DNA of 64,000 nucleotides from assembly GCF_001424875.1 (NCBI RefSeq), contig NZ_LMCT01000072.1, positions 798-64,797 of the forward strand, read 5' to 3'. The position numbers and the translations under genes are program-made. Of this stretch, positions 48,954-64,000 are shown piece after piece (position 1 is the stretch's first letter; every line of letters starts with the position of its first letter). The DNA is from Kitasatospora sp. Root107. GTDB taxonomy: Bacteria > Actinomycetota > Actinomycetes > Streptomycetales > Streptomycetaceae. The notes below the pieces were generated by a model that was not told where the DNA came from, made no database searches, and saw only the letters and a list, made by a program, of their open reading frames with translations.

Positions 48954-49972
48954 AGCAACACAGCTCCGATCAGCACGCTGACCAGTATCGCGACCACGAA
49001 GGTGGTGCTGGCGAAGCGTGCGGGGAAGGCGCGGCCGAACGCGCCGGACTGAAGGGCGATCAGCTTCATGTCGACCATCGGGCCGACCACCATGAAGGCG
49101 AGTCGGGCGGTGGGGGAGAAGCCGGTGAGCGAGGCGGCGACGAAGGCGTCGGCCTCGGAGCAGACCGAGAGCAGCACGGCGAGCAGTGCCAGCAGCGGCA
49201 CGGAGAGCCAGGGCGAGTCGGTGAACATGGCCAACACGCCGGGCGGGACAAGGACGTTGAAGGTCGCCGCCGCCATCGCACCGACCACCAGGAAGCCGCC
49301 CGCGTGCAGGAAGTCGTGCTGCATGCCGCGCCGGAACTCCTCCCAGCGCGAGCCTCCGGTGCCGTGCGATTCAGGGCGCTTCGGCAGCCGCAGCCACTCC
49401 TCCTTGCCGAACCTGATCCAGAGCCAGCCCATGGTGATCGCGGTGATCAGCGAGGCGGCCAGCCGGGCGGCCACCATCTCGGGCTTTCCGGGGAAGGCGA
49501 TCGCGGTGGAGACCAGCACCACCGGGTTGACGGCGGGGGCCGAGAGCAGGAAGGCGAGCGCGGCGGCCGGGGTGACCCCGCGCCGCATCAGGCTGCCCGC
49601 GACCGGCACCGAGGCGCACTCGCAGCCTGGCAGCACCACACCCGCCACCCCGGCCACCGGCACGGCCAGCGCCGGGTTCTTCGGCAGTATCCGGGCGAAC
49701 AGGCTGGGCGGGACGAAGGCACCGATCGCGGCCGAGACCACCGTGCCGAGCAGCAGGAACGGCACGCCCTGCACCACGATCGAGACCAGCAGGGTCCGCC
49801 AGGCGCCCACCACGGCGGCGTCGGACCAGCCGAAAAGTCCGGTGCCCGCCAGGACGATCACCGCGCAGCCGAGCCCGAAGAGCCACCCGGACGACGACTG
49901 GGTCTGCTCGGTCAGCGGCTCCGCCGCCGGCCTGGTCCGACTTCTCGGTGGCGATGCCTGTTTCGTCCCCAT
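48950..49972 (-). CDS. YraQ/DUF318-family permease
   Basis: A 340-residue protein with ATG 49972. A basic N-terminal tail precedes about eight membrane helices. The family signature is PGCECASVPVAGSLMRRGV with two cysteines, plus SAPAVNPVVLVSTA and SVCSEADAFVAASLTGFSP. Related permeases are implicated in metal or metalloid transport. It forms an operon with TIGR03943 (4-bp overlap). A Zur-like 15-mer lies near 50060-50085 upstream. Confidence 0.85.
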   Translation of the reverse strand: MGTKQASPPRSRTRPAAEPLTEQTQSSSGWLFGLGCAVIVLAGTGLFGWSDAAVVGAWRTLLVSIVVQGVPFLLLGTVVSAAIGAFVPPSLFARILPKNPALAVPVAGVAGVVLPGCECASVPVAGSLMRRGVTPAAALAFLLSAPAVNPVVLVSTAIAFPGKPEMVAARLAASLITAITMGWLWIRFGKEEWLRLPKRPESHGTGGSRWEEFRRGMQHDFLHAGGFLVVGAMAAATFNVLVPPGVLAMFTDSPWLSVPLLALLAVLLSVCSEADAFVAASLTGFSPTARLAFMVVGPMVDMKLIALQSGAFGRAFPARFASTTFVVAILVSVLIGAVLL

Positions 49973-50057
49973 GCCAAGATCCGCCCCTGCTCTGCGAGCT
50001 GCTCGTGGCAGCACTCGATGACCGGACCGGTCGATCTGCCCGGTCGGCGGAGGCAAG

Positions 50058-50088
50058 ACTAGCGACGATAACCATATTCATCTACGTC
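50058..50088 (-). promoter_or_regulatory. Possible Fur/Zur-like site ahead of the permease gene
   Basis: The minus-strand sequence TGAATATGGTTATCG matches 11 of 15 positions of the actinobacterial Zur box TGAAAATGATTTTCA as I recall it. Its two halves are not good inverted repeats. It lies about 90 bp upstream of the permease start, over the end of the GNAT gene. Only a weak suggestion of zinc control. Confidence 0.25.
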
Positions 50089-50633
50089 TGAGCGCCTGCC
50101 AGTTCTCCGGGCAGCCGGAGGTTCGGGCGGCCCGGCCCGAGCGGGATCTCGAAGTGCACGGTGGCCACGCCGGGCCCGTGCTCGCCGGTGGTGCGCGCGT
50201 CGCAGACCTCGACCGCCAGGCTGCGCCAGAAGGGTTCGGCGCCGGCGATGTCCACGTTGGTGTGCAGGTAAAGGTGCTGGTAGCCGCCCTCCCGGCCGGC
50301 GAACTCCGTTGCCAGTGCGACCATCCGCCGGGCCAGCCCGTGCCGACGGTGGCCGGCCCGGACGTACACCCGGACGAGTTGTGCGGTGAGCCCCGAGGGA
50401 TAGCGCTCGGCCAGCCACTGCGGGTGCGGCGGGTGGGCCGGGCCGCGCGAGTGCAGGGCGGTGTGCCGGGGGTGGTCGAGGTAGGTCGCCTCCAGGGCGA
50501 CCACGTCCTCGTGCCAGGCGGGGACGTAGCCGTAGCCGAACTCGCGGTAGAAGGTGTCGAGCATCAGGGCGCGGGCGCCGGGCAGGTCGTCCCGGCGGGC
50601 GTGGCGTACCTGGTAAGGCTGGTGACTGGTCAT
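50082..50633 (-). CDS. GNAT N-acetyltransferase
   Basis: A 183-residue protein with ATG 50633. The N-terminus reads YQVRHARRDDLPGARALMLD. The acetyl-CoA motif is VYVRAGHRRHGLARRMVALA (R-x-x-G-x-A), followed by LYLHTNVDIAGAEPFWRSL. The substrate is unknown. It is divergent from the metallophore operon, and the palindrome at 50675-50703 lies in the shared promoter region, so it may be co-regulated. Confidence 0.85.
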   Translation of the reverse strand: MTSHQPYQVRHARRDDLPGARALMLDTFYREFGYGYVPAWHEDVVALEATYLDHPRHTALHSRGPAHPPHPQWLAERYPSGLTAQLVRVYVRAGHRRHGLARRMVALATEFAGREGGYQHLYLHTNVDIAGAEPFWRSLAVEVCDARTTGEHGPGVATVHFEIPLGPGRPNLRLPGELAGAQT

Positions 50634-50674: not shown

Positions 50675-50703
50675 GTCTACATGGAAACGGTTTCCATGTA
50701 GAC
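50675..50703. promoter_or_regulatory. Palindromic operator, Fur/Zur-like 7-1-7 core
   Basis: A perfect 14+1+14 inverted repeat: arm GTCTACATGGAAAC, central G, then its exact reverse complement. The middle 15 bp, TGGAAACGGTTTCCA, has the 7-1-7 layout of Fur-family boxes and matches 11 of 15 positions of the Zur consensus. It lies between the divergent GNAT and ATP-grasp genes, 77 bp upstream of GTG 50780. A TGAAAATGA half-site follows at 50708-50716. A metal-responsive repressor is the natural reading; the regulator is not in the window. Confidence 0.8.
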
Positions 50704-50779
50704 GTATTGAAAATGAAAACGCGTGTCGGCTAGGTTCTGCTTCTACACCGTCCTGCCGGGTGGAGCGAGAGGGAGATCC

Positions 50780-52048
50780 GTGGCGCATCTGTTGGTGATC
50801 GAAAGCTGGGTCGGGTCCATGAGCAGACTGCTGCCCAGGGCCATCGGGGAGGGCGGGCACCGGTTCACCTTCCTGACCCGGGACCTGCACCACTACCTCC
50901 GGGCGGCGCCGGCCGACACCGCCCACCCGTTGCTGGCGGCCGCCAACGTGCTGACCGCCGACACCAACGACCCGGACCGGCTGCTCCCGTACGTCGAGCG
51001 ATTGCACCAGGTGCTCGGCTTCGACGGGGTGATCTCGTCCTGTGACTACTACCTGCCCACCGTGGCGCTGGTGGCCGAGCGGCTCGGGCTGCCGGGGCCC
51101 TCGGTGGCGGCGGTCACGGCCGCCTGCCGGAAGGATCTGACCCGGCAGCGGCTGGCCGAGGAAGGCGTGCCGGGGCCTCGGTTCGCGCTCTGCCGGGACC
51201 GGGACGAGGCGGTCGAGGCGGCGGCCGGGATCGGCTACCCGCTGGTGGTCAAGCCGGTCGACCTATGCGCCGGGATGCTGGTCCGCAAGGTCGCGAACGA
51301 GGCCGAACTGTACGCGGCTTACCGGGATTTGGACGAGTTCCCGGTGAACGCCCGGGGGCAGCGGCGGCAGCCCGTGGTGCTGCTGGAGGAGCTGCTCGGC
51401 GGGCCCGAGGTAAGCGTCGAGACCGTGTCGTACGGCGGCCGGACCGAGGTGGTCGGGGTCACCAGCAAGAGCGTCGGTGGTGCGCCCGCCTTCATCGAGA
51501 CCGGGCACATGTTCCCGGCCGCGCTGAGCCCGGCGGACGCGGCGGCCGCAGCCGAGACCGCCGTCCGGGCGCTGGCCGCGCTCGGGCTCGACCAGCTGGT
51601 CGCGCACACCGAGATCAAGCTGACCCCGCGCGGCCCCCGGGTGGTCGAGGTCAACCCCCGCCCGGCCGGGAACCGGATCACCGAGCTGATCCGCCGGGTC
51701 GCCGGGATCGACCTGGCGGCGGCGGCCGTGGACGTCGCGCTCGGCGTCACCCCGGACCTGACGGTCCGTCCGACCGGCGTGGCCAGTGCAGCGATCGCCT
51801 TCCTGCTGCCGGAGCGGGACGGTCTGCTGACCGGGATCGACGGTGCGGAGCAGGTCGGCCAGGAGTCGGCGGTGGTCGAGCTCACCCTCGCCGAGCCGGG
51901 CCGCCAGGTCCGCCGCGCGGTCAGCAACAACGAGTACCTCGGCCACCTGCTGGCCACCGACACCGAGGGCGCCGCCGCGCTCGACACCGCCGAGCGGCTG
52001 CTCGCCCGGCTGGTGCCCTGTTACGCGGAGGAGGCGGTGCCGGTATGA
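50780..52048 (+). CDS. ATP-grasp ligase (first gene of the metallophore operon)
   Basis: A 422-residue protein with start GTG 50780 after GAGGGAGA. The N-terminal Rossmann-like domain begins LLVIESWVGSMSRLLPRAIG. The ATP-grasp domain has GYPLVVKPVDL, the glycine-rich VVLLEELLGGPEVSVETVSY, and metal-binding EIKLTPRGPRVVEVNPRPAGN (Glu, Asn). The carnosine-synthase/BacD-type group joins an acyl phosphate to an amine to make amide bonds. In this operon it probably links amino acid building blocks of the metallophore. Substrates cannot be read. Confidence 0.88.
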   Translation: MAHLLVIESWVGSMSRLLPRAIGEGGHRFTFLTRDLHHYLRAAPADTAHPLLAAANVLTADTNDPDRLLPYVERLHQVLGFDGVISSCDYYLPTVALVAERLGLPGPSVAAVTAACRKDLTRQRLAEEGVPGPRFALCRDRDEAVEAAAGIGYPLVVKPVDLCAGMLVRKVANEAELYAAYRDLDEFPVNARGQRRQPVVLLEELLGGPEVSVETVSYGGRTEVVGVTSKSVGGAPAFIETGHMFPAALSPADAAAAAETAVRALAALGLDQLVAHTEIKLTPRGPRVVEVNPRPAGNRITELIRRVAGIDLAAAAVDVALGVTPDLTVRPTGVASAAIAFLLPERDGLLTGIDGAEQVGQESAVVELTLAEPGRQVRRAVSNNEYLGHLLATDTEGAAALDTAERLLARLVPCYAEEAVPV

Positions 52049-52854
52049 CCAGCACGAAGACCAGCTCGGTCGACCGACTGGTCGAGCAGGTCAACTCCGG
52101 TGCGTACGGGCTCGATCCGGCGGCCGAGCGGATCGCGCTGGCCTTCACCACCAGCCAGGCCGTCCGGCACTCCGGCCGGGCGAGCGGGTACCGCAACGAG
52201 GTGCTCAGCCTGCGGCTCGGCCCGGCCGTCGGCTCCTGCGCGGTCGAACCCGGCGCGCTGCCGCCCGGGGCGCTGGACGACTGCGTGGGCGCGAGCGTCG
52301 CCGAGCTGCTGGCACATCCGCTGCTGCCGGTGCGGATCGCCGCTCTGGACGCCTTCCTGCTGCTGGCTCGCCCGCACACCCCCGAGTGCGGCGCCCGCCC
52401 GGTGCCGATCCCGGCCGGGAGTTCGCTGGTCCGCTCGCGGGCCCGAGCCCGTGCGGTGGTCGGCCTGGTCCCGGCCGAGGCCCGGCGGGTGCTGGTGGTC
52501 GGCGTGGTCAACTCGCTGCTGGAGCAGCTCCGCGAGCGCGGCACGGCGTATGTCCCGTGCGACCTTAAGGGCGGGCGGACGGAGTGGGGCGATCCGATCC
52601 GGACCGAGGCCGAACTCGACGACTGCGACGCCCTGTTGGTCTCCGGGATGACGCTCGGCAACGGCAGTTTCGAGACCTTCGCCGAGCATGCCCGGCAGAC
52701 CGGCAAGCCGCTGGTGATGTTCGCTCAGACCGGCAGCGCGGTGCTGCCCCGGCTGCTGGGGGACGGGGTCACGGCGGTCAGTGCCGAGCCCTATCCGTTC
52801 TTCTGGCTGGACGGCGGCCCGAGCAGCATCCACCTGTATGGGGGGCTGCGGTGA
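52045..52854 (+). CDS. DUF364 putative heavy-metal-chelation protein
   Basis: A 269-residue protein whose ATG overlaps the upstream stop by 4 bp. The C-terminal half is the DUF364 Rossmann-like domain: RRVLVVGVVNSLLEQLRERG, DALLVSGMTLGNGSFETFAE and KPLVMFAQTGSAVLPRLLGD. The N-terminal half is the enolase-N-like portion. DUF364 (PF04016) is described as putative heavy-metal chelation, and two-domain members occur in metallophore and transport operons. Its reaction is unknown. Confidence 0.8.
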   Translation: MTSTKTSSVDRLVEQVNSGAYGLDPAAERIALAFTTSQAVRHSGRASGYRNEVLSLRLGPAVGSCAVEPGALPPGALDDCVGASVAELLAHPLLPVRIAALDAFLLLARPHTPECGARPVPIPAGSSLVRSRARARAVVGLVPAEARRVLVVGVVNSLLEQLRERGTAYVPCDLKGGRTEWGDPIRTEAELDDCDALLVSGMTLGNGSFETFAEHARQTGKPLVMFAQTGSAVLPRLLGDGVTAVSAEPYPFFWLDGGPSSIHLYGGLR

Positions 52855-53930
52855 CCACCGCCCTGCTGCGGCCCGTCGCCGCCAACCCGGAGCTGCTCTC
52901 GCTGCTCGGCCACACCCCGCTGGCCAGGATCAGCGCACCGCTGCCGCAGGCGCACCCCGGCTTCTGGGCGAAGCTGGAGTACCTCGGCGCTGGCGGCATG
53001 AAGGCCAGGTCGGCCGTCGCGATGCTGCGCGGCGCCCACGCCAGGGGTGAACTCCGCAGCGGTGCACCGGTGGTGGAGTCGACCTCGGGCACCCTGGGGA
53101 TCGGCCTGGCCTTCGCCGGGCAGGCCCTCGGGCACCCGGTGGTGCTGGTCGGCGACGCCGAACTCGAGCCGTCCATGCGTCAGTTGCTCCGCTCGTACGG
53201 AGCCCGTCTGGAGCTGGTCGAACGACCGGCCGAGCGCGGCGGCTGGCAGGCGGCCCGGCTGGCCCGGCTGCGGGAGGTGCTCGACCGGCTGCCCGGTGCG
53301 TACTGGCCGGACCAGTACAACAACCCGGACAACGCCGCCGGTTACCTCTCGATGGCCCGTGAGCTGACGGACCGCCTGGACCATCTGGACGTGCTGGTGT
53401 GCAGCGTCGGCACCGGCGGCCACAGCGCCGGCCTGGTCGAGCCGCTGCGCCGCCGCTGGCCCCGCCTCCAGGTGATCGGGGTCGACTCGGTCGGCTCGGC
53501 GATCTTCGGGCAGCCCGCCAGGCCCCGGCTGATGCGCGGGCTCGGCAGCAGCATCCACCCGCGCAACGTGGGCTACCGGCACTTCGACGAGGTGCACTGG
53601 GTCGGCCCGGCCGAGGCGGTGGACGCCTGCCGTCGGCTGGCCAGGGGCAGCTTCGTGAGCGGCGGTTGGAGCACCGGCGCGGTCGCCCTGGTCTCCGCCT
53701 GGGCCGCCAGGGTGCAGCCCGGCGCGGTGGTCGCCACCGTCTTCCCGGACGGCCCGCACCGCTACCTGGGCACGGTCTACGACGACGACTGGTGCCACGC
53801 CCACCAACTGCCCGCACCGGTCTCCCGGCCGGTGGAGATCCCGCACCCCGGCGCCGTCGAAGTGACCGGCTGGGCGCGCTGCCGCACTGTCATCGACCCC
53901 CTGACGACCGCGTTGGAGACCCGACCGTGA
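52851..53930 (+). CDS. PLP-dependent cysteine-synthase-like enzyme (SbnA-like)
   Basis: A 359-residue fold-type II PLP enzyme with start GTG 52851, overlapping by 4 bp. The PLP lysine is in AGGMKARSAVAML; ESTSGTLGIGLAFAGQALG is the Asn/Ser loop equivalent; CSVGTGGHSAGL binds the phosphate. It differs from housekeeping CysK by its divergent substrate loop and long C-terminal extension. Relatives such as SbnA of staphyloferrin B make diaminopropionate precursors. No SbnB-type partner is present, so the product may be another beta-replacement. Confidence 0.82.
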   Translation: MTTALLRPVAANPELLSLLGHTPLARISAPLPQAHPGFWAKLEYLGAGGMKARSAVAMLRGAHARGELRSGAPVVESTSGTLGIGLAFAGQALGHPVVLVGDAELEPSMRQLLRSYGARLELVERPAERGGWQAARLARLREVLDRLPGAYWPDQYNNPDNAAGYLSMARELTDRLDHLDVLVCSVGTGGHSAGLVEPLRRRWPRLQVIGVDSVGSAIFGQPARPRLMRGLGSSIHPRNVGYRHFDEVHWVGPAEAVDACRRLARGSFVSGGWSTGAVALVSAWAARVQPGAVVATVFPDGPHRYLGTVYDDDWCHAHQLPAPVSRPVEIPHPGAVEVTGWARCRTVIDPLTTALETRP

Positions 53931-54979
53931 AACTCGACCTACGCGTGGTGGAGCTCCATCTCACCGAACCGCTGCGCATCTCCCGCTCCACCATGGCCTC
54001 GCGCGACGCGGTCGAACTCGCCGTCCGGCACGGCGGGTTGAGCGGCTACGGCGAGGTGGTCGCCAGTACGTACCTGGGCCTGCCCACCGAGCGGATCCTC
54101 CGGCACAGTCGGGCCCTCGACCTGGCCCGCTACCCCGACCCGGAGACCGCGCTGATCGAACTCCAGCGCCTGGAGGCCCCGTTCAAGGAGCTGCCGCCCG
54201 GAGTGCTGGCCGGGGTGGAGGCCGCCCTGCTCGACCTGGTCGGCAAGCGGGCCGGTGCCCCCGTGCACCAACTCCTCGGACTGCTCGGTACCCCGGCCGC
54301 CGCCACCGCCCGCACCATCGCCATCGTCGACCCCGTCCGGGCCGCCGCCCAGGCCGCCCGGCTGGCGGTCAGCGGCTTCCGGGTGCTCAAGGTCAAGGCG
54401 GGCTCGCCCGATCCCGAGGACGACCTGGCCCGGGTCAGGGCCGTGCAGATAGGAGCCCCCGAGGCCGAGTTGCTGCTCGACCCGAACGGTGCCTGGACGG
54501 TGGCCCAGTCGCTGGCCCTGATACCGAGGTTCGCCGAGCTCGGGGTGACCGCCGTCGAGCAGCCCACCGCCCCCGGGCACCCGGAGTGGCTGGCCGAGGT
54601 GGCCGAACGCTCCGAACTGCCGGTGATCGCCGACGAGGACGCCGTCTCACTGGACGACGCCGAGCGGCTGGCCGGGCGGGTGCAGGGCATCAACATCAAG
54701 CTCGCCAAGTGCGGCGGCGTCTCGGCCGCGCTGCGGATCTGCGCCGCCCTGCACGGCAGCGGCACCGAGGTGATGCTCGGCTGTCTGACGGCGAGTTCGC
54801 TCGGCATCGCCCCCGCCGTGCACCTGGTGGACCGGGCGCGCTGGGTCGACCTGGACGGCCACCTGCTGCTCCGGCACGACCCCTGGCGCGGCATCGGCGG
54901 CACCGACGGCGTGGTCCGGGCCGCCGACCGGGCCGGGCTCGGCGTCCGGCCGGCCGAGACGCCCGGGACGACCGCGTGA
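53927..54979 (+). CDS. Dipeptide epimerase, enolase superfamily
   Basis: A 350-residue protein with start GTG 53927 (4-bp overlap). The muconate-lactonizing subgroup motifs are clear: KVKAG of the KxK pair near residue 155, metal ligands in LLLDPNGAW (Asp), AVEQP (Glu) and VIADED (Asp), and the second base lysine in INIKLAKCGG. Its relatives epimerise L-Ala-D/L-Glu and related dipeptides. Here it may invert an alpha-carbon of an amino acid or dipeptide intermediate, comparable to CntK's role in staphylopine. Confidence 0.88.
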   Translation: MKLDLRVVELHLTEPLRISRSTMASRDAVELAVRHGGLSGYGEVVASTYLGLPTERILRHSRALDLARYPDPETALIELQRLEAPFKELPPGVLAGVEAALLDLVGKRAGAPVHQLLGLLGTPAAATARTIAIVDPVRAAAQAARLAVSGFRVLKVKAGSPDPEDDLARVRAVQIGAPEAELLLDPNGAWTVAQSLALIPRFAELGVTAVEQPTAPGHPEWLAEVAERSELPVIADEDAVSLDDAERLAGRVQGINIKLAKCGGVSAALRICAALHGSGTEVMLGCLTASSLGIAPAVHLVDRARWVDLDGHLLLRHDPWRGIGGTDGVVRAADRAGLGVRPAETPGTTA

Positions 54980-56178
54980 GGACGGTCCGCGCGGTCCGGA
55001 GCTTCCCGCTGCCCGTACGGCTGCTGCTGGTCAACCAACTCGGCGTCAACACCGGCTTCTACCTGCTGATCCCGTACCTGGCCACCCACCTCGGGCAGGA
55101 CCTGGGCCTGTCGGCGGTGGCGGTCGGGCTGGTGCTCGGCGTGCGCAACCTCAGCCAGCAGGGCCTGTTCATCCTGGGCGGCTCGGCCGCCGACCGGCTC
55201 GGCGCGCGGGGCGTGATCATCGCGGGGTGCGCGCTGCGCACCGTCGGCTTCGGTCTGTTCGCGCTCGGCGACGGGATGACCGTCCTGCTGGCCGCCTCGG
55301 CACTCAGCGGACTGGCCGGAGCGCTGTTCAACCCGGCCGTGCGGACCTACCTGGCGCACGAGTCGGCGGAGCGGAAGGCGGAGGCGTTCGCCCTGTTCAG
55401 CGTCTTCGCCACCACGGGTGCGCTGCTCGGCCCGCTGCTCGGCACGGCGCTGCTGCTGGTCGACTTCCGGGCAGCCGCGCTCACCGCCGCCGGGATCTTC
55501 GCCCTGCTGACGGTGGCCCAGGCCTGCGTCCTGCCACCCCGGCCGGTGCCGGCGCCGAGCACCGGCGTGCTCGGGGACTGGCGCGAAGTCCTCGGCGACC
55601 GCCGGTTTCTGGCCTTCGCGCTGGCCCTGGTCGGCCTGTACGCGCTGGAGAGCCAGCTCTACTTGCTGCTGCCCGACCGGGCGCGCCAGGTCACCGGCTG
55701 GGACGGCGCGGTCAGCCTGCTCTTCCTGACCAGCACGGTCGCCAACCTCACCCTGCAACTGCGAATAACCCGCTCGCTCCAGCAGCGCGGCACCCGGGGC
55801 CGGTGGATCGCCCTGGGACTGCTGGTCGCCGGGCTCGCCTTCCTGCTGCCCCTGCTGGCAGGCGGGTTGGTGCCGCTGCTGCTGACCGCGCTGCTGCTGC
55901 ACGTCGGTGTGATGATCGCTCAGCCCTTCGTCCAGGAGCTGATACCCGCCTTCGGCCGGGCCAGCCTGACCGGCACCTACTACGGCGTCTTCTACCTGGT
56001 CTCCGGACTCGCCGCCGCGCTCGGTAACGCCTCCGTCGGCTGGGCGATGGACACCGCCGACTGGGCGCCCTGGCTGCTCTGCTGCGCCCTCGGACTGACC
56101 TGCGCCCTCGCGGTCGCCCGGCAACGGGCCCGACTGCCTGATCCGACCGTCCGACAGCTGATCGGAGAACCGCTATGA
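54976..56178 (+). CDS. MFS exporter of the metallophore operon
   Basis: A 400-residue protein with start GTG 54976 overlapping the epimerase stop by 4 bp (GTGA). It has about 12 helices with MFS motif A-like GGSAADRLGARG between helices 2 and 3, and LVLGVRNLSQQGLFILGGSA before it. Its place in the operon between biosynthesis and import genes matches CntE, which exports staphylopine. Predicted to secrete the product. Confidence 0.88.
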   Translation: MRTVRAVRSFPLPVRLLLVNQLGVNTGFYLLIPYLATHLGQDLGLSAVAVGLVLGVRNLSQQGLFILGGSAADRLGARGVIIAGCALRTVGFGLFALGDGMTVLLAASALSGLAGALFNPAVRTYLAHESAERKAEAFALFSVFATTGALLGPLLGTALLLVDFRAAALTAAGIFALLTVAQACVLPPRPVPAPSTGVLGDWREVLGDRRFLAFALALVGLYALESQLYLLLPDRARQVTGWDGAVSLLFLTSTVANLTLQLRITRSLQQRGTRGRWIALGLLVAGLAFLLPLLAGGLVPLLLTALLLHVGVMIAQPFVQELIPAFGRASLTGTYYGVFYLVSGLAAALGNASVGWAMDTADWAPWLLCCALGLTCALAVARQRARLPDPTVRQLIGEPL

Positions 56179-56957
56179 CCAGCGGAAACCTGCTGACCGA
56201 CACGCCCGAGCTGTACGAGCTCCGGTTCCCCGACCCCGACCACCTGGCGGCCCGCTGGGCCGACGCCACCCTGCGCCGCTACGGCGCCGGGCCCCGCGTG
56301 CTCGACCTCGGCTGCGGCACCGGCCGGGACGCCGCCTGGCTGCACCGGCACGGCGGGCGGCACGTGCTCGGCCTGGACAGCTCCCCGGCGATGGTCGAGT
56401 ACCGCTGCGGCGACATGCGCGAACTCGATCTGGGGGAGCGCAGGTTCGACGCGGTGCTCTGCCTGGACAGCGCGCTGCTGTACTGCCACACCAACCAGGA
56501 CCTCGACCGCCTGCTCGAGCGCTGCCGCCAGCACCTCGCCCCCGGCGGCCTGTTGGTGGCGGAGATGCGCAACGGAGCGTACTTCCTCGGCCGGACCGAC
56601 CTGCTGGACACCGTCCGCACCGACAGCGTCGAGCACGACGGTGTCCGGTACACCTCCCGCACCAGGCTGTGGATCGACCACCCGGCCCAACTGCTGCGCC
56701 GCTCCCGGGAGTGGAGCACCGAGGACGGCAGTGCGCCGGTCGAGCAGCGCTCCGCCTGGCGGCTGCTCTTCCCGCAGGAGCTGCGCCACCTGCTGGCGGC
56801 GCACGGCTTCGAGGTGCTCACCCTGCACGACCGCCCGGGCCCGCGGACCGAACCGGCCTGGACCGAGGGCGCCGAACCCGCCGACACCGCCGACTCCGAC
56901 CGGCTGCACCTGGTCGCCCGACTTGCCGACACCACCACTGAAACGAGCAGACCGTGA
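56175..56957 (+). CDS. SAM-dependent methyltransferase
   Basis: A 260-residue class I methyltransferase; ATGA overlap. Motif I is VLDLGCGTGRDAAWL; acidic loop LGLDSSPAM; motif IV region FDAVLCLDSALLYCH; post-motif LLVAEMRNGAYFLG. Closest in style to small-molecule O/N-methyltransferases. In this context it probably methylates an amine or acid of the metallophore. Not essential for membership. Confidence 0.88.
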   Translation: MTSGNLLTDTPELYELRFPDPDHLAARWADATLRRYGAGPRVLDLGCGTGRDAAWLHRHGGRHVLGLDSSPAMVEYRCGDMRELDLGERRFDAVLCLDSALLYCHTNQDLDRLLERCRQHLAPGGLLVAEMRNGAYFLGRTDLLDTVRTDSVEHDGVRYTSRTRLWIDHPAQLLRRSREWSTEDGSAPVEQRSAWRLLFPQELRHLLAAHGFEVLTLHDRPGPRTEPAWTEGAEPADTADSDRLHLVARLADTTTETSRP

Positions 56958-58480
56958 ACCGCCGTACCGTCCTGATAGCCGCAGCCGCCCTGGGCATGGC
57001 CGGCTGCGCCTCGACAAGCAAGGCCCCTTCCGCCGAGACCGCGACCCCGAAGAACGGCGGCCGGCTGCGGGCGATCTTCGCCGGCGGTGGCACCAACGAG
57101 ACCCTCGACCCGCACCTGAGCAACCTGTTCGTGGACGCGGCCCGGGCCAAGGCGCTCTACGACAAGCTGGCCGACTCCGGCTCCGACCTGGCCGCCGTGC
57201 CCCGGCTGGCCACCGGGTGGGAGCCGAACGCCACCCTGGACGTGTGGACCGTCAAGCTGCGCAAGGCGACCTTCCACGACGGCCGCCCGGTCACCGCCGA
57301 GGACGTGCTGTACAGCTACCGCCGGATCACCGACCCCAAGCGCGCCTTCCGGGCGAAGGCCTCGCTGGAGCCGGTCGACCTGGCCGCCAGCCGGGCCGTC
57401 GACGAGGGCACGGTGGAGTTCAGGCTGAAGCGCCCGTACGCCGAATTCCCCAACGTGCTGGCCGCGTTCGGCGCGTACATCGTGCCGAAGGACACCGAGA
57501 GCTTCGCCGAGCCGGTCGGTTCCGGCCCGTTCAGGTACGTCTCGTTCAAGCCCGGCAGCTCACTGCTGGTGAAGCGCAACCCCGACTACTGGGAGGGCGC
57601 CCCGCACCTGGACGAGCTGGAGATCCTGATCGCCAACGAGGAGTCCGCCAGGGTCAGCGCACTGCTCGGCGGACAGGCCGACTACGCCCACGAGTTGAAC
57701 CCCGCCACCGCCCGCGTCCACGAGGGCCGGGGCAAGGTGGAGGTGATCCGGCTGCGGAACAGTGCCATGCAGGGCTTCGTGATGAAGACCGACCGGGCGC
57801 CGTTCGACGACAAGCGGATCCGGCAGGCGTTCTTCCTGATCGCCGACCGCAAGGAGCTGGTCGACGGCGCGCTGTCCGGCGCGGGTGAGGTCGGCAACGA
57901 CCTGTTCGGCAAGGGAGCGCAGTACTACCCGAGCGAACTCCCGCAGCGCACCCAGGACTTGGCGAAGGCCCGAGCGCTGCTCAAGGAGGCTGGGCAGGAG
58001 GGCCTCAGGGTCACCCTGGACACCTCGCCGGTGGCCGCCGGATTCGTGGAGGCGGCGGGCATCTTCAAGGAGCAGGCGGCGAAGGCGGGTGTCACGATCG
58101 AGGTCAAGGTCGGCAACAAGGACACCTACTGGAAGGACATCCTGGACGGCGGCGTGCTGGCCTCCTACCGCTCGGGCACCATGCCGATCGAGTCGCACCT
58201 CTCCCAGCGGTTGCTGACCAAGTCCACCACCAACGCCACGCACTGGAAGCAGCCCGACTTCGACGACCTCTACCTGCAGGCCCAGTCCACCGCGGACCCG
58301 GCCGCGCGCACGGCGATCTACCAGCGGATGCAGCGTCGGCTGTACGACGAGGGCGGCTTCCTGATCTGGGGCTTCGCGGACTGGATCGTGGCCACGGCGC
58401 CCACGGTGCGCGGGGTCGCCAAGGACGCGCCGGCCAACACGCTCGACTGGGCCCGCTTCGACCGGACCTGGCTGGCATGA
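56954..58480 (+). CDS. ABC transporter substrate-binding lipoprotein (family 5)
   Basis: A 508-residue protein with GTG 56954 (4-bp overlap). The lipobox is LGMAGC-ASTSK, 18 residues in. SBP_bac_5 signatures are NETLDPHLSNL, LATGWEPNATLDVWTVKLRK, ATFHDGRPVTAEDVLYSYRR and FRYVSFKPGS. The family carries peptides, nickel and opine-metal chelates (DppA, NikA, CntA). Together with the following permeases and ATPase it forms a complete importer, likely for the metal-loaded product. Confidence 0.92.
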   Translation: MNRRTVLIAAAALGMAGCASTSKAPSAETATPKNGGRLRAIFAGGGTNETLDPHLSNLFVDAARAKALYDKLADSGSDLAAVPRLATGWEPNATLDVWTVKLRKATFHDGRPVTAEDVLYSYRRITDPKRAFRAKASLEPVDLAASRAVDEGTVEFRLKRPYAEFPNVLAAFGAYIVPKDTESFAEPVGSGPFRYVSFKPGSSLLVKRNPDYWEGAPHLDELEILIANEESARVSALLGGQADYAHELNPATARVHEGRGKVEVIRLRNSAMQGFVMKTDRAPFDDKRIRQAFFLIADRKELVDGALSGAGEVGNDLFGKGAQYYPSELPQRTQDLAKARALLKEAGQEGLRVTLDTSPVAAGFVEAAGIFKEQAAKAGVTIEVKVGNKDTYWKDILDGGVLASYRSGTMPIESHLSQRLLTKSTTNATHWKQPDFDDLYLQAQSTADPAARTAIYQRMQRRLYDEGGFLIWGFADWIVATAPTVRGVAKDAPANTLDWARFDRTWLA

Positions 58481-59415
58481 CCCGATCCTGGTTGGGCCGC
58501 CGGCTGCTCCTCGGGGTGGCGCAGTCGGCGGCCGTGCTGGTGCTGGTCTTCGTGCTCACCGAGGCACTGCCCGGAGACGCCGCCGTCGCCCTGGCGGGGG
58601 ACAACCCCGACCCCGAGCGGATCGCGCTGATCCGCTCGGCGATGGAACTCGACCGCCCGGCCCTCGAACGCTTCCTCGGCTGGCTCGGCGAACTGCTGCA
58701 CGGCGACCTCGGTCGCTCGCTGGTGACCGGACGACCCGTCAGCGGCTACCTGGCCGACGGCCTCGGGGTCACCCTGCTGCTGGCCGCGCTGACCCTCGCC
58801 CTGCTCGTCCCGCTCGCCCTCTGGCTGGGCATGCTGGCCGCCCGCCGGGAGGGCTCCAGGCTGGACCGGCTGATCAGCTCGGCGACCCTCGCGGTCTACG
58901 CCGCACCGGAGTTCGCGCTCGGCATGCTGCTCAGTACGGTGCTGGCGCTGCGGCTCGGCTGGCTGCCACCGACCGCCGTCGGCGGTGTCGCAGCCGACCC
59001 GGCGGTGCTGGTGCTCCCGGTGCTGGTGCTGCTGGCCCGGCCGGTCTGTTCGATCAGCCGGCTGGTGCGGGCCGGGATGATCGAGGCGCTGGCCCGGCCG
59101 TACGTCGCCCAGGCCCGCCGCTACGGCGTACCGGAGTGGCGGGTGCGCTGGCTGCACGCGCTGCCCAACGCCTTGGCCCCGGCGGCCCAGCAACTCGCCA
59201 GGACTTGTGACTGGCTGCTCTGCGGGGTGGTCGTGGTGGAGGCGCTGTTCGTGCTGCCAGGTCTGGGCAGCGTGCTGCTGGACGCGGTGGCGGCCCGGGA
59301 CGTGCCCGTGGTGCAGGGCCTGGCCGTGGTCTTCGCGCTGCTCACCGTCGTGCTCAACCTGGGCGCCGACCTGGTGGCCCGGCGGTTCGCCCCCCGGACG
59401 GAGCTGACCCGATGA
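58477..59415 (+). CDS. ABC transporter permease, DppB/NikB type
   Basis: A 312-residue protein with about six helices; ATGA overlap with the binding protein. The EAA loop is ALARPYVAQARRYGVPEWRV. N-terminal ALPGDAAVALAGDNPDPERI and LDRPALERFLGWLGELLHGD are standard for this subunit. It forms the pore with the next gene. Confidence 0.92.
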   Translation: MTRSWLGRRLLLGVAQSAAVLVLVFVLTEALPGDAAVALAGDNPDPERIALIRSAMELDRPALERFLGWLGELLHGDLGRSLVTGRPVSGYLADGLGVTLLLAALTLALLVPLALWLGMLAARREGSRLDRLISSATLAVYAAPEFALGMLLSTVLALRLGWLPPTAVGGVAADPAVLVLPVLVLLARPVCSISRLVRAGMIEALARPYVAQARRYGVPEWRVRWLHALPNALAPAAQQLARTCDWLLCGVVVVEALFVLPGLGSVLLDAVAARDVPVVQGLAVVFALLTVVLNLGADLVARRFAPRTELTR

Positions 59416-60212
59416 CCCGCAGCCGGTACGCCCTCGGGGCGGCGCTGGTCGCGCTGCCGTTGCTGCTGGCACTGTTCGGACCGCTGCTCGCGGGCGAGGC
59501 CGGGCCCCGGTCGGTCTCCTTCACCCAGGGTGCGGGCCACTGGCTGGGCACCGACTTCACCGGACGGGACGTCTGGCGCCAAGTCCTGCTCGGTGGACGG
59601 CCGGTGGTGCTGGTGGCACTGTCCGCCACCGCGCTCGCGTACGCCGTCGCGCTGCCGCTCGGGCTGGCCGCCGCGCTCACCCGGCTCGGCTGGCTGGAGG
59701 AGTTGCTGATGCGGCCGCTGGACGTGCTGCTCGCGGTGCCCTCGCTGATCCTGGTGCTGCTGGTGGCCGCCGCGCTGGAGCCGGGCCCGGTCGGCCTCAC
59801 GGTGCTGGTCGCGGTGGTCGCGGTGCCGGACGCGGCCCGGGTGGTGCATGCCGCCGCCGTCGAGATCGCCGCCCGCCCGGCGGTGGAGGCGCTGCGGATG
59901 CACCGGGAGTCCTGGGCCAGGATCGCACTCGGCTACACCACCCGCGAGCTGCGCCGCACGCTGGCCGCCGACGCGGGCACCCGGCTGGTCGGAGCGCTCT
60001 ATCTGGTGAGCACGGCCGCCTTCCTCGGCGTCGGGGTGGCTCCGGACGCGGCCGACTGGGCCGTGATGGTCGACCGTAACCGCCCCGGCCTCGACCTCCA
60101 GCCCTGGGCGGTGGTGATCCCCGCCGTGCTGATCGCCGGGCTCTCGATGGGGGCCAACCTGCTGTTCGACGCGGCGCTGCAGCGGCGCCCGCTCAAGGGA
60201 GTTGAACGATGA
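59412..60212 (+). CDS. ABC transporter permease, DppC/NikC type
   Basis: A 266-residue partner permease; 4-bp overlap. It has LGTDFTGRDVWRQVLLGGRP, the DppC-type start, and an EAA-type loop around EALRMHRESWARIALGYTTR. About five to six helices. It completes the membrane part of the importer. Confidence 0.92.
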   Translation: MTRSRYALGAALVALPLLLALFGPLLAGEAGPRSVSFTQGAGHWLGTDFTGRDVWRQVLLGGRPVVLVALSATALAYAVALPLGLAAALTRLGWLEELLMRPLDVLLAVPSLILVLLVAAALEPGPVGLTVLVAVVAVPDAARVVHAAAVEIAARPAVEALRMHRESWARIALGYTTRELRRTLAADAGTRLVGALYLVSTAAFLGVGVAPDAADWAVMVDRNRPGLDLQPWAVVIPAVLIAGLSMGANLLFDAALQRRPLKGVER

Positions 60213-61570
60213 CGGCACCGCTGGTCCAGGTGACCGACCTGCGGGTCGAGGTCGGCGGCCGAACCCTGCTGGACGGCGTGCACCTGCGCGCGTACCCCGG
60301 CCGGGTGACCGCCCTGCTCGGAGCCTCGGGCTGTGGAAAGACCACCACCGGCCTGGCACTGCTCGGCGAGTACCCCGAGGGTGCGAAGGTGTCCGGCACG
60401 GTGCTGACGCCGGCCGGGGCGGTCGGGTACGTGCCCCAGCACCCGGCCACCGTGCTCAACCCGGCCCGCCGGATCGGCGCCCTGCTGGGAGAGTTGGGGC
60501 CCCGGTCGGCCGTCGAGGACGCGCTCCGCCGGGCCCGGCTGGACGACCCCGCCGCCGTGTTGCGGCGCTTCCCGCACCAGCTTTCCGGTGGGCAGCAGCA
60601 GCGGGTGGTGATCGCTCAGGCCCTGTTGTTCGGGGCCAGGGTGCTGGTCGCCGACGAGCCGACCACCGGGCAGGACCCGGAGACCAAGCGGCACCTGGTC
60701 ACCGAGCTGGCCGCGCTGGTGCGGGACGGCCTGGCTCTGGTCCTGCTCAGCCACGATCTGGACGTGGTACGGGAGTTGGCTGATGAGGTGGTGATGCTGC
60801 GCGGCGGCCGGGTGGTCCGGGCGGGTGCCTGGGACGAAGTGCCGGCGGTCAGCCCCCGTCGGTCCGCCGAACCGACCGCGCCGGTGCTGGCGGCACGTCA
60901 CCTGACGGCCCGCCACCCGGGCGGCGCGTTGGCACTGGCCGATGTCACGCTCACCCTCGGCGCGGGCGAGTGCCTCGCCCTGACCGGCCGCTCGGGCAGC
61001 GGGAAGACCACCCTGGGTCGCTGCCTGGCCGGCCTGCACAGCGCCTACCAGGGCACGGTCACCCTGGACGGGCGCCCGCTGCCGCGCAGCCTGCGTTCCC
61101 GCAGCCGGGCCGAGCTCGCCGCGGTCCAGTACGTCTTCCAGGACGCCCGGGCCGCCTTCGACGAGCGCCGCCCGGTGGCCGGGCAAGTGGCCAGGGCGGC
61201 GGTCCGGCTCGGCGGTCTGGGCCCGGCGGAGGCCGACGGGGCAGCGGCCAGGTTGCTCGCCGAGCTGGGCGTACCGACCACCGGCCGGCCGGCCGAACTC
61301 TCCGGCGGTGAGCTGCAACGGGCGGCACTGGCCCGGGCGTTGGTGGCCAACCCGCGCGTCCTGGTCTGCGACGAGATCACCTCGGGTCTCGATGCGCTGA
61401 GCCGCCGCCTGATCCTGGACCACCTGGCCGGGCTGCGTGACCGGACGGGTCTGGCGCTGCTGCTCATCACCCATGACCGGGCGGCGGCCGACATCCTGGC
61501 CGACCGCACGCTGGACCTTCAGACAGTCCCCAGCGGCGGAGTGTCGGGTTCCCTGAGCACGGCCAGGTAG
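60209..61570 (+). CDS. ABC transporter ATPase, two nucleotide-binding domains in one chain
   Basis: A 453-residue fused ATPase (DppD-DppF or CntD-CntF in one chain); 4-bp overlap. Domain 1: Walker A GASGCGKTTTG, signature LSGGQQQRVVIAQALL, Walker B VLVADEPTTG. Domain 2: Walker A GRSGSGKTTLGR, signature LSGGELQRAALARAL, Walker B VLVCDEITSG. It powers the importer. Its last 52 bp overlap the 3' end of the convergent minus-strand aat-like gene (61519-62199), an unusual arrangement. Confidence 0.92.
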   Translation: MTAPLVQVTDLRVEVGGRTLLDGVHLRAYPGRVTALLGASGCGKTTTGLALLGEYPEGAKVSGTVLTPAGAVGYVPQHPATVLNPARRIGALLGELGPRSAVEDALRRARLDDPAAVLRRFPHQLSGGQQQRVVIAQALLFGARVLVADEPTTGQDPETKRHLVTELAALVRDGLALVLLSHDLDVVRELADEVVMLRGGRVVRAGAWDEVPAVSPRRSAEPTAPVLAARHLTARHPGGALALADVTLTLGAGECLALTGRSGSGKTTLGRCLAGLHSAYQGTVTLDGRPLPRSLRSRSRAELAAVQYVFQDARAAFDERRPVAGQVARAAVRLGGLGPAEADGAAARLLAELGVPTTGRPAELSGGELQRAALARALVANPRVLVCDEITSGLDALSRRLILDHLAGLRDRTGLALLLITHDRAAADILADRTLDLQTVPSGGVSGSLSTAR

Positions 61571-62199
61571 CGCTCGCGCGGCAGCAACTCGGCGCCCAGC
61601 GAGCGGATGTGCGGGCTGTCCCACTGGGCGTCCAGCAGCCGGCCGCCGACCGCGCCGAACCGGGCGCCGAGATCGGCCAGGACGGCGGTGCCCGCTCCCG
61701 GCCGGCGGTGGAACATCGAGTCCAGGCTGAGCACCGGCCCCACCTGGATCCCGTACGCCCCGCCGACCAGCTCGTCGTCCTCCCAGACCTCCCCGCTGAC
61801 CGCTCGCCCGTCCCGGTGCAGTTCGCGCAGTGCGGCCGTCAACTCGTCGGTCAGCCAGACGGGTTGGCGGTCGCGGCGGCACTCCTCCAGGACCCGGTCG
61901 AAGGCCTGCCCCACTGTGCAGCGCCGGCGCGGCCCGGCCCGCAGGCGGTTCACCGGCAGCACCGGCCGAGGGTCGGGCGACCACCAGGCCAGCGCATACG
62001 GGTCGTCCCCACCGACCAGAGTGGCCGGACCGTCCGCCCAGCGTGCCTCGTTGAAGGCGGCCAGGACCGGATCGGCCGCCGGGAAGGGGAACAGCCCGGC
62101 CCGGTAGGCGCCGAGCAGGGTGCGGGCGTCCAGCGCCCCGCCGAAGGCCACAGGAGCGTCGGCGGGTGCGTCGGTCAGGTCCAACTCCTCCCACCACAC
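61519..62199 (-). CDS. Leucyl/phenylalanyl-tRNA--protein transferase-like enzyme
   Basis: A 226-residue protein. Family motifs: LAWWSPDPRPVLPVN, VSGEVWEDDELVGGAYGIQV and LDSMFHRRPGAGTAVLADL, then GRLLDAQWDSPHIRSLGAEL. In Escherichia coli Aat the matching SESMF-like loop has Glu156 and the LIDCQ loop Gln188; here Gln is kept and Glu reads as Asp. Aat moves an amino acid from aminoacyl-tRNA to an N-terminal amine. It lies 7 bp after the NRPS stop in the same operon, so it may make a tRNA-dependent amide bond in a natural product. A housekeeping N-degron role is the alternative. Confidence 0.8.
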   Translation of the reverse strand: MWWEELDLTDAPADAPVAFGGALDARTLLGAYRAGLFPFPAADPVLAAFNEARWADGPATLVGGDDPYALAWWSPDPRPVLPVNRLRAGPRRRCTVGQAFDRVLEECRRDRQPVWLTDELTAALRELHRDGRAVSGEVWEDDELVGGAYGIQVGPVLSLDSMFHRRPGAGTAVLADLGARFGAVGGRLLDAQWDSPHIRSLGAELLPRERYLAVLREPDTPPLGTV

Positions 62200-62206
62200 G
62201 GGCGGT

Positions 62207-64000
62207 TCACCTGCTCGCGGTCGGCGGGTCGAGGTAGCCGGAGCCGATCAGGTTCCGCAGGTAGCGGTCCAGCAGTGCGCCGTCCACCGGCGGGAACTCC
62301 ACCCCGCTCCCGGCCAGGTCGGCGTCCACTCCGGACCGGTCGAAGCGCGGGAAGGTCCGGCGGAAGTACAGCTCGCTGACGGTCAGTTCGGGCCGCCCCG
62401 CGCAGCGGTCCACGAACAGCGGCAGGAAGGGGGTGGCCGGGTGCTTGGGGTGCTCGGCGGCGTACCGGGCGAACCGGCGCACCCACGCCTGGTACGGGAG
62501 CTCCTCCACCGGGTAGCCGAACGCCCGTAGCCGGGCGGTGAGTTCGCCGAGCAGCGGGTGCCGGGGGTTGGTCAGGTGGTACGCCTGCCCGGTGGCCTCG
62601 ACGTGGGTGGCGAGGTAGGTCACCGCGCGGGCGAAGCTGTCGGCGGGCAGGAAGTCCATCGGCAGGTCCACGTCGGGCGCGCACCCGGTGTCGGCGATCA
62701 GCCGGATCAGTGCGCAGATCTCGGTGGTGCTGTTCATCGCGCCGGTGGCCTGGTCGCCGGTGACGTCGTTCAGCCGGTGCACGGCCACCGGCAGACCGGC
62801 CTCGGCGGCCTGCCGCAGCAGCTCCTCGGCGACCCACTTGGTCTCCGCGTACCCGACCGAGAGGTGCCCCGGGTGCCCCAGCGGGGTGCGCTCGGTGACC
62901 TGCCGGACACCGGCCGCCCCGTAGCCGGCCAGCACCGACATGCTGGACAGGTGGTGCAGCGGGACGGCCCGGGAGTGCCCGGCCAGCCGGACCAGCTCGC
63001 GGGTGCCGCCGACGTTGACGGCGCTCAACTCCCGGTACGGATAGATGAAGTTGACTCGGGCGCCGCAGTGCAGGATCAGGTCGAGTCCGTCGGCCAGCTC
63101 GGTGAACCGACGCTCGGTCAGCCCGAGCAGCGGTGCCCCGAGGTCGCCGGGCTCGGGCACCACCCGGCCCGGCGCCACGCCGTCCAGCGGGTCCCGGAGC
63201 AGGTGGCGCAGCCCGGCCGCGCGCAGCCGGTCCAGCGCCTGCCCGGGGTCGGTGTCGCGGACCAGGCAGTGCACGGTGGCGTCGGTCTCCCGGAGCAGGG
63301 TGTCCAGCAGGTGCGAGCCGCAGTAGCCGGTGGCCCCGGTCAGCAGGATCGCGCCGGGGCGGCGCCAGTTCGGCACCGGCCCGCCGTTGCTCCTGATCGG
63401 TACCCCGAGCTCGGCCTCGCCGACGAAGTCGGGCGGCGGGTCGCCGGCCGTCAGGGTCCCGGCCCGGGCCGCCTGGGTGTTGCGGGCGAACGCGGCCAGC
63501 GTCGGTTCGGCCAGCAACGCACGGGTGAGCGCCCGGAGTTGACCGACCCCGATGCCGAACATGATCCGGGCCCTGGCCAGCATCTCGGTGGCCAGCAGCG
63601 AGTCGCCGCCGATCCGGAAGAAGTCGTCCCCGGGATGCACCTGCTCCAGGTGCAGCATCCGGGCCCAGAGCTCGGCCACGCCGGTGCCGACCGGGGTGAG
63701 CGGCTCGGCGGCGGCCGTCGGTGGTGGCGGCGGGGGAGCGGTGGAGAGCAGCAGGCCCTTGCGGTCCAGCTTGCCGTTGTGGTCCAGCGGCAGCTCGGCC
63801 ACCTCGGCCAGCCTGGCGGGCAGCATCCAGCCGGCCAGCCGCTCGGTCAGGAACCTGCTCACGTCCTCGGGCGGGACCGGGCCCGCGGTGGTGTAGAAGG
63901 CGGCCAGCGCCCCGTCCTCCGGCACCACGGCGGCCTGGTCCACCGCCGGGTGGTCGGTCAGGGCCGACTCCACCTCGGCCGGATCGACCCGGTAGCCGCG
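62207..64000 (-). CDS. NRPS C-terminal part with thioester reductase domain (runs off window)
   Basis: 597 codons of the C-terminal end. Order: end of an adenylation domain with the A10 lysine motif DHNGKLDRKGLL, a carrier protein (FFRIGGDSLLATEMLARA, phosphopantetheine Ser), and a Lys2/CAR-like reductase domain with the NADPH fold ILLTGATGYCGSHLLDTLLR and the SDR pair Y-x3-K (VGYAETKWVAEELL). Such domains release the chain as an aldehyde or alcohol. The start lies beyond 64,000. It is followed by the aat-like gene and converges on the metallophore operon. Confidence 0.9.
   Translation of the reverse strand, partial: RGYRVDPAEVESALTDHPAVDQAAVVPEDGALAAFYTTAGPVPPEDVSRFLTERLAGWMLPARLAEVAELPLDHNGKLDRKGLLLSTAPPPPPPTAAAEPLTPVGTGVAELWARMLHLEQVHPGDDFFRIGGDSLLATEMLARARIMFGIGVGQLRALTRALLAEPTLAAFARNTQAARAGTLTAGDPPPDFVGEAELGVPIRSNGGPVPNWRRPGAILLTGATGYCGSHLLDTLLRETDATVHCLVRDTDPGQALDRLRAAGLRHLLRDPLDGVAPGRVVPEPGDLGAPLLGLTERRFTELADGLDLILHCGARVNFIYPYRELSAVNVGGTRELVRLAGHSRAVPLHHLSSMSVLAGYGAAGVRQVTERTPLGHPGHLSVGYAETKWVAEELLRQAAEAGLPVAVHRLNDVTGDQATGAMNSTTEICALIRLIADTGCAPDVDLPMDFLPADSFARAVTYLATHVEATGQAYHLTNPRHPLLGELTARLRAFGYPVEELPYQAWVRRFARYAAEHPKHPATPFLPLFVDRCAGRPELTVSELYFRRTFPRFDRSGVDADLAGSGVEFPPVDGALLDRYLRNLIGSGYLDPPTASR

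Follow-up and report, generated by a model that had tools for sequence, protein, structure and literature searches.

In a 64,000-nucleotide stretch of DNA from Kitasatospora sp. Root107 (contig NZ_LMCT01000072.1; hereafter the window) we found an operon of ten genes, g1 to g10, which we give a probability of about 0.75 of belonging to the zinc-starvation response, with repression by Zur under ample zinc and with products that would make and recover a small zincophore independent of non-ribosomal peptide synthetases (NRPS). We base this reading on gene content, conservation, active-site residues and a Zur-type operator. All ten genes (50780-61570) run in one direction (+), and neighbours are joined by 4-bp overlaps, each gene starting on the last four bases of its predecessor:

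g1, 50780..52048, + strand: ATP-grasp_4 and LAL_C2 domains; L-amino-acid-ligase-like; predicted amide-bond-forming step
g2, 52045..52854, + strand: DUF364 (PF04016), by Pfam and by AlphaFold2 fold match to 3l5o; 84 sequences aligned
g3, 52851..53930, + strand: PALP; SbnA-like fold-type II pyridoxal-phosphate (PLP) enzyme; predicted C-N bond-forming beta-replacement on O-phosphoserine
g4, 53927..54979, + strand: MR_MLE enolase superfamily; dipeptide epimerase
g5, 54976..56178, + strand: MFS_1 transporter of the major facilitator superfamily (MFS); predicted product exporter
g6, 56175..56957, + strand: class I S-adenosylmethionine-dependent methyltransferase; predicted tailoring step
g7, 56954..58480, + strand: SBP_bac_5 solute-binding protein, NikA/Opp type; probable lipoprotein with lipobox-like LGMAGC
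g8, 58477..59415, + strand: BPD_transp_1 permease of an ATP-binding cassette (ABC) transporter, NikB/OppB type
g9, 59412..60212, + strand: BPD_transp_1 ABC permease, NikC/OppC type
g10, 60209..61570, + strand: fused double ABC_tran ATPase, NikD-NikE like

These labels rest on Pfam and NCBIfam profile searches of the ten proteins, and they agree with the families assigned in the original prediction, an earlier reading of this DNA from its letters (for DUF364 the predicted fold agrees as well). The overlaps claimed there held when coordinates, lengths and start and stop codons were re-read, and the families likewise bear out its parallel between this make-export-import layout, with an exporter and an Opp/Nik-type importer, and the cnt system. 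Neither NRPS modules nor an IucA/IucC synthetase was found among the ten proteins with Pfam.

Upstream of g1, where a scan of the intergenic region for promoters and terminators gave nothing informative, lie the following elements:

50676..50702, strand not assigned: Zur-type operator, a 27-bp perfect dyad TCTACATGGAAACGGTTTCCATGTAGA with 13-1-13 arms, containing TGGAAACGGTTTCCA
50682-50696, strand not assigned: Zur-box-like core of the dyad, its central 15-mer
50714..50728, + strand: second, weaker Zur-like element TGAAAACGCGTGTCG, aligned by motif search with the box common to homologous operons

Judged by its sequence, the box standing in the operon promoter is a Zur-type box of the kind present at known Zur targets. 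The pattern TGRAAAYGRTTWYCA, at no more than one mismatch, occurs at four places in the 8.17-Mb genome of this strain, and a backward control pattern at none; as the pattern was composed after the window dyad was known, the informative part is the recovery of znuA and of a ribosomal-protein locus. The znuA site lies at the start of a ZnuA-like frame whose ZnuA domain match is 142 bp away, and the ribosomal site belongs to rpmB2-rpsN2//rpmG2-rpmE2, divergent, zinc-independent ribosomal-protein paralogues whose names were read from translations; the remaining places are the g1 promoter and one within a long, unrelated frame. In S. coelicolor both znuA and the ribosomal locus are described as Zur targets (PMC5472717, PMC6103462).

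The same kind of box recurs upstream of homologous operons. We compared 66 non-redundant g1 upstreams (window included) with 3000 control windows drawn from these loci, using the actinobacterial Zur core consensus given in PMC5472717. At no more than one mismatch the core was present in 44 upstreams, against 6 of the 3000 controls and 4 of the 308 controls lowest in guanine and cytosine content; at no more than two mismatches the counts were 61 of 66 against 29/3000 and 15/308. The S. coelicolor motif from chromatin immunoprecipitation (ChIP), also at no more than two mismatches, was found in 54 of the 66 upstreams against 83/3000 and 28/308, respectively. A motif search with no preset motif, run on 67 non-redundant upstreams, returned a single shared 23-mer, GACAATGAAAAYGATTATCGATA; the search forces one site on each sequence, and one upstream (L065) scored negative. 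The second element of the window reached a motif score of 17.4, against up to 46.0 for the shared box; GAAAATGAAAAC, overlapping the start of that element, is present in 8 of 13 same-genus relatives. A simple best-palindrome scan of the upstreams did not recover the shared box.

Among the 13 same-genus relatives, ten have an upstream site within one mismatch of either of two patterns, one within two and two within three (counts made with no control); several of these sites have diverged in sequence and retain a near-dyad form. In S. scabiei 87.22 the sole exact match to TGAAAAYGATTATCR is the box of this operon, a single 1-mismatch match lies between genes without an obvious part in zinc biology, and the nine 2-mismatch rows include two boxes at a ZnuA-like gene and one at a locus with an acetyltransferase (GNAT) homologue and an SBP_bac_5-like gene. 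The operon on a Rhodococcus plasmid carries a Zur-like box, TTGGTAACGGTTGTCATTA, about 58 bp upstream.

The operator evidence thus suggests zinc, under Zur, as the likely metal. The original prediction had left the choice among zinc, nickel and iron open; zinc gains from the Zur-type operator. That the product serves nickel, cobalt, copper or iron instead is unlikely. Metallophores of about this size often accept a range of metals, and the transport genes g7 to g10 score highest against nickel and Opp models of NCBIfam, every one under its equivalog cut-off; the operator, however, matches Zur sites, and the iron and nickel operators of Streptomyces, with which no search was run, look different.

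The operon is not peculiar to the Root107 genome and is common in Streptomycetaceae. When we searched a phylum sample of 396 genomes with the DUF364 protein of the window (E <= 1e-8), seven matched: the strain's own, five others from its family, of which L009-L011 carry the whole operon and L012 and L013 a different DUF364 cluster, and a distant one (L014), in which the other operon genes were not seen in the 6.7 kb covered. A collection scan found at least 263 relatives; the best 80 of them (most of them titled Streptomyces, besides Embleya, Wenjunlia and one 'Actinobacteria bacterium') together with L009-L011 make up the 83 loci on which the following counts are based. The neighbourhood search that had been proposed shows the whole operon conserved, in the same gene order, at 72 of 83 loci; of the other 11, six stop at a contig end and five are without some genes where no contig end accounts for it. 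The inspected parts of loci with missing genes (L017, L018, L019, L030, L034, L045) held no informative alternative. Within the family, 81 of 297 genomes carry DUF364 at E <= 1e-20; by row count, 54 have a protein of at least 65% identity, 29 one of 39-47%, and two have both. Where genomes of these groups were inspected, which was done for part of them, those with at least 65% identity had the ten-gene type and those with 39-47% a shorter type described below. The Rhodococcus plasmid, from another order, has the operon in the same gene order, with 42-61% identity for g1 to g9 and g10 by annotation only. The composition, which had been called unfamiliar, is so in the literature found and is not rare.

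The nearest solved relative of g1 is 3vot (L-amino acid ligase BL00235), followed by BacD; its top NCBIfam model is an ATP-grasp/argininosuccinate-lyase fusion, aligned over the ATP-grasp part only, and dapdiamide A synthase is among its weak matches. g2 is a genuine, divergent DUF364 (Pfam 27.6 bits against a cut-off of 23), which matched no PDB chain by phmmer at E <= 1; its AlphaFold2 model (mean predicted local distance difference test 86.8) has as its top PDB match the DUF364 structure 3l5o (E 7e-9, template-modelling scores 0.59/0.64). For g3 the nearest solved relative is SbnA (5d87/5d84, E about 1e-46). The PLP lysine, Lys51, is kept in 84 of 84 sequences, and the equivalents of SbnA Arg132, Gln151 and Tyr152, placed by alignment, in at least 97% of the 84; in SbnA, the binding of O-phosphoserine is attributed to Arg132, Tyr152 and Ser185 (PMC12414870). 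In g4 the residues K155, K157, D185, E211, D236 and K258 and a DxD motif (D308, D310) are present in 81 of 81 sequences. We take these to be the KxK motif, the D/E/D metal ligands, the late-strand lysine and the ammonium anchor (DxD) of a dipeptide epimerase.

From these assignments the reactions, the product, the metal and the direction of transport can be predicted. g3 would eliminate phosphate from O-phospho-L-serine on PLP and then couple an acceptor amino acid through its amino group, so that an N-(2-amino-2-carboxyethyl)-amino acid results. SbnB catalyses the next step after SbnA; as the operon lacks SbnB, the N-(2-amino-2-carboxyethyl) unit is predicted to be kept and not cleaved to diaminopropionate. 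SbnA itself uses O-phosphoserine and glutamate to form N-(2-amino-2-carboxyethyl)-glutamate (PMC12414870). g1 would then form an amide bond between the N-(2-amino-2-carboxyethyl)-amino acid and another amino acid, and g4 would invert one alpha-carbon of the dipeptide; formation of a dipeptide bond followed by epimerization is likely, given that L-amino acid ligases are the nearest relatives of g1 and that the epimerase residues of g4 are invariant. g6 may methylate the product and g2 may perform one further step, of unspecified reaction. The chelator would leave the cell through g5, its zinc complex would be captured by g7, and g8, g9 and g10 would import it. Such amide- or amine-linked aminocarboxylate chemistry, as judged from protein families and active-site residues, fits the gene set.

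The same enzymes can be read as the makers of a dipeptide antimetabolite of the bacilysin or dapdiamide kind, with the MFS protein conferring self-resistance and the ABC genes encoding an ordinary peptide importer. The kinship of the g1 ligase to BL00235/BacD, its weak match to dapdiamide A synthase, the dipeptide epimerase and the SbnA-like enzyme all speak for this, but the Zur-like boxes at 61 of 66 upstreams, the presence of a related box at both znuA and rpm, and the conservation of the importer together with the biosynthetic genes at the 72 loci make it improbable.

There is a second type of DUF364 cluster. In all four shorter clusters read (L012, L013 and those on plasmids of S. melanogenes and Tsukamurella, L173 and L174) we found DUF364, a GHMP kinase, a PLP enzyme with the motif SSGI, FecCD-type ABC genes and an MFS gene, the last by annotation on the plasmids. 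All four have a Zur-like box at no more than two mismatches. In one genome (G171) a 17-mer matches genome-wide only at the shorter cluster and the ribosomal locus, and in another (G334) only at the shorter cluster and a GNAT and SBP locus (controls 0 in both). The GHMP kinase could be the source of a phospho-amino acid, in the way that SbnI is for SbnA (PMC12414870). This second Zur-boxed cluster, with DUF364, GHMP kinase, PLP enzyme and FecCD genes, suggests a wider class. A constant pairing of DUF364 with a PLP enzyme was considered and rejected: among 24 DUF364 loci outside the family, inspected over about 1.5 kb of flank or less, a g3 homologue was found at one (L136) and FecCD at four. 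The one case (genome G196) has a canonical DUF364 and, within about 1.5 kb, a PLP enzyme of 28.5% identity to g3.

Relatives of g3 also occur in 73 plasmid records. In all six non-operon plasmid contexts opened (L167-L172) an MFS gene directly follows the g3 homologue, and the two of these MFS proteins that were compared are g5 homologues (44-46% identity); the two PLP enzymes read have the motifs TSGS and TSGT. Metal-efflux genes adjoin two of the six cassettes (in one, cation diffusion facilitator and ArsR/SmtB genes; in the other, a heavy-metal P-type ATPase), and a further cassette adjoins a BlaI/MecI/CopY-type regulator and serA. We hypothesize that the PLP and MFS pair is an older synthase-exporter pair that was recruited into zinc scavenging. 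Taken together, these contexts allow a tentative proposal, for which we put the odds somewhat below even, of a new zincophore class: DUF364 with an SbnA-like PLP enzyme that has no TSGN asparagine, in a ten-gene (TSGT) and a shorter (SSGI) form under Zur-type operators, with a PLP and MFS core that also occurs by itself on plasmids of actinobacteria, in some cases beside metal-efflux genes, where it would serve as a one-enzyme chelator synthase with its exporter.

Several observations weigh against the zincophore reading of the operon. The window dyad is an atypical Zur box: its 15-mer shows four departures from the ChIP motif of S. coelicolor, in two symmetric pairs, and TGRAAAYGRTTWYCA, as said, was drawn up with the dyad in hand. 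The actinobacterial core is absent at two mismatches from 5 of the 66 upstreams, 3 of the 13 same-genus relatives have no upstream site at one mismatch or fewer, and the remaining 2-mismatch rows for TGAAAAYGATTATCR in S. scabiei are probably chance (its backward control gave 1 match). The top NCBIfam model for g3, SbnA (TIGR03945), scores 256.6 bits under a cut-off of 349.95, the TSGN motif is TSGT in 84 of 84 sequences, with loss of the asparagine, and a glycine stands where SbnA has Ser185; g3 may thus not be a C-N bond former. A plain SbnA was ruled out for g3 by the score and the altered motif. An importer of the Nik/Opp type could carry peptides or nickel instead of a zinc complex. None of the six plasmid cassettes has a Zur-like box at no more than two mismatches in 600 bp, so the activity shared by g3 and g5 need not be specific to zinc uptake. 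The original prediction had further noted the absence of nicotianamine-synthase-like and opine-dehydrogenase genes, which stands for the operon (neither Pfam family is among the ten proteins) and, for nicotianamine synthase (PF03059), also for the genome, where the search found none and its control in Methanosarcina was positive. Opine dehydrogenase (PF10100) gave no match in the genome and the control genomes were likewise silent, so its genome-wide absence is weak. Lastly, the window dyad has the general form of LacI-family operators. Least probable of all is that the dyad at 50676-50702 is an operator of the LacI family or another family, fortuitously like a Zur box, in front of an amino-acid or peptide pathway under nutrient control: LacI-family operators resemble dyads of the form TGGAAACG-GTTTCCA, but no LacI-family protein is among the ten, the Streptomyces, Embleya and Rhodococcus homologues have Zur-like boxes upstream of g1, and TGRAAA-type sites stand there in most same-genus relatives.

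Besides the Zur-type operator and the wide conservation, the analysis adds to the original prediction a group of genes diverging from the operon:

50082..50633, - strand: GNAT acetyltransferase, divergent and sharing the operator region; candidate co-regulated gene
48950-50056, - strand: ArsP_1 permease, downstream of the GNAT gene; possible zinc-stress gene
48156-48953, - strand: DUF1980_C protein, downstream of the GNAT gene; possible zinc-stress gene

A GNAT homologue lies within 1.5 kb of g1 at 19 of the 83 loci, and the ArsP_1 permease was found at 3. Gene pairs of this ArsP_1 and DUF1980 kind have been linked to Zur, a link that is putative here. In S. scabiei (L120, about 991.5 kb) and in G334 (L130) a Zur-like box lies between a GNAT homologue and an SBP_bac_5-like gene; by its sequence, this locus is perhaps a second, stand-alone Zur-controlled importer of the Nik/Opp type. 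Convergent with the operon are a gene for an Aat-like leucyl/phenylalanyl-tRNA transferase (61519-62199, -) and a single-module NRPS-like gene (62207-63973, -) that runs past the window end and encodes an MbtH, an A and a PCP domain and, at the terminus, one of the thioester-reductase type; the pairing is unusual. We rejected both genes as members of the system, since they are convergent and present at 0 of the 83 loci.

If the zincophore reading is true, many Streptomycetaceae carry an undescribed pathway of zinc acquisition, and the operon could yield zinc chelators that are new. Compounds of this general kind attract interest as inhibitors of metallo-beta-lactamases (PMC10792612). The operon would also give DUF364 a testable function and, if the wider class is real, its first tested pathway. 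Bacterial zincophore systems have been mapped in print by way of the opine dehydrogenase CntM (PMC7438024), so operons of this type would be invisible to that map. We found no paper describing the operon in the openly licensed PMC literature, searched by titles and abstract starts, which is weak evidence of absence, and no assigned reaction for DUF364 in the same literature.

Among individual proteins of known systems, BL00235 and BacD share the ATP-grasp fold and LAL_C2 with g1, to which they are remotely related, and SbnA of staphyloferrin B shares with g3 the PLP lysine and the Arg132 and Tyr152 equivalents; the operon, however, is without the SbnB partner. The DUF364 fold of the g2 model is that of Dhaf4260 (3l5o), for which a role in heavy-metal chelation was proposed from genome context (PMC2954201); g2, in contrast, belongs to a complete operon for biosynthesis and transport that includes an SbnA-like enzyme. 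As to whole systems, the staphylopine system of S. aureus has an MFS exporter, and an exporter and an Opp-type ABC importer are present here by family (g5 and g7 to g10, with the direction of transport predicted). Like cnt of staphylopine and pseudopaline, the operon brings together at a single locus the genes to make, export and, by an ABC system, import its product. Import of opine-like zincophores is described as proceeding through Opp- or FecCD-type systems, with CntM as a defining feature (PMC7438024), and cnt of P. aeruginosa as being under Zur control (PMC6103462). Unlike cnt, with its opine dehydrogenase CntM and nicotianamine-synthase-like CntL, the operon has an ATP-grasp ligase, DUF364, an SbnA-like enzyme and an epimerase; a staphylopine-type assignment is ruled out because CntM and CntL are absent. 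The predicted product also resembles in kind the small actinobacterial aminocarboxylate metallophores [S,S]-ethylenediaminedisuccinate (EDDS) of Amycolatopsis japonicum and ethylenediaminesuccinic acid hydroxyarginine (EDHA). These rely on SbnA-type chemistry, with an SbnA/SbnB-type pair and a lyase that joins a C4 unit. Among the ten proteins Pfam found the SbnA-like one only and no SbnB-like or lyase family; DUF364, the dipeptide epimerase, the methyltransferase and the Opp-type importer are extras relative to EDDS and EDHA. EDDS, too, is under Zur control (PMC6103462, PMC9252823). The operon works like cnt and like the Zur-controlled EDDS system, yet it fails the defining enzymes of both.

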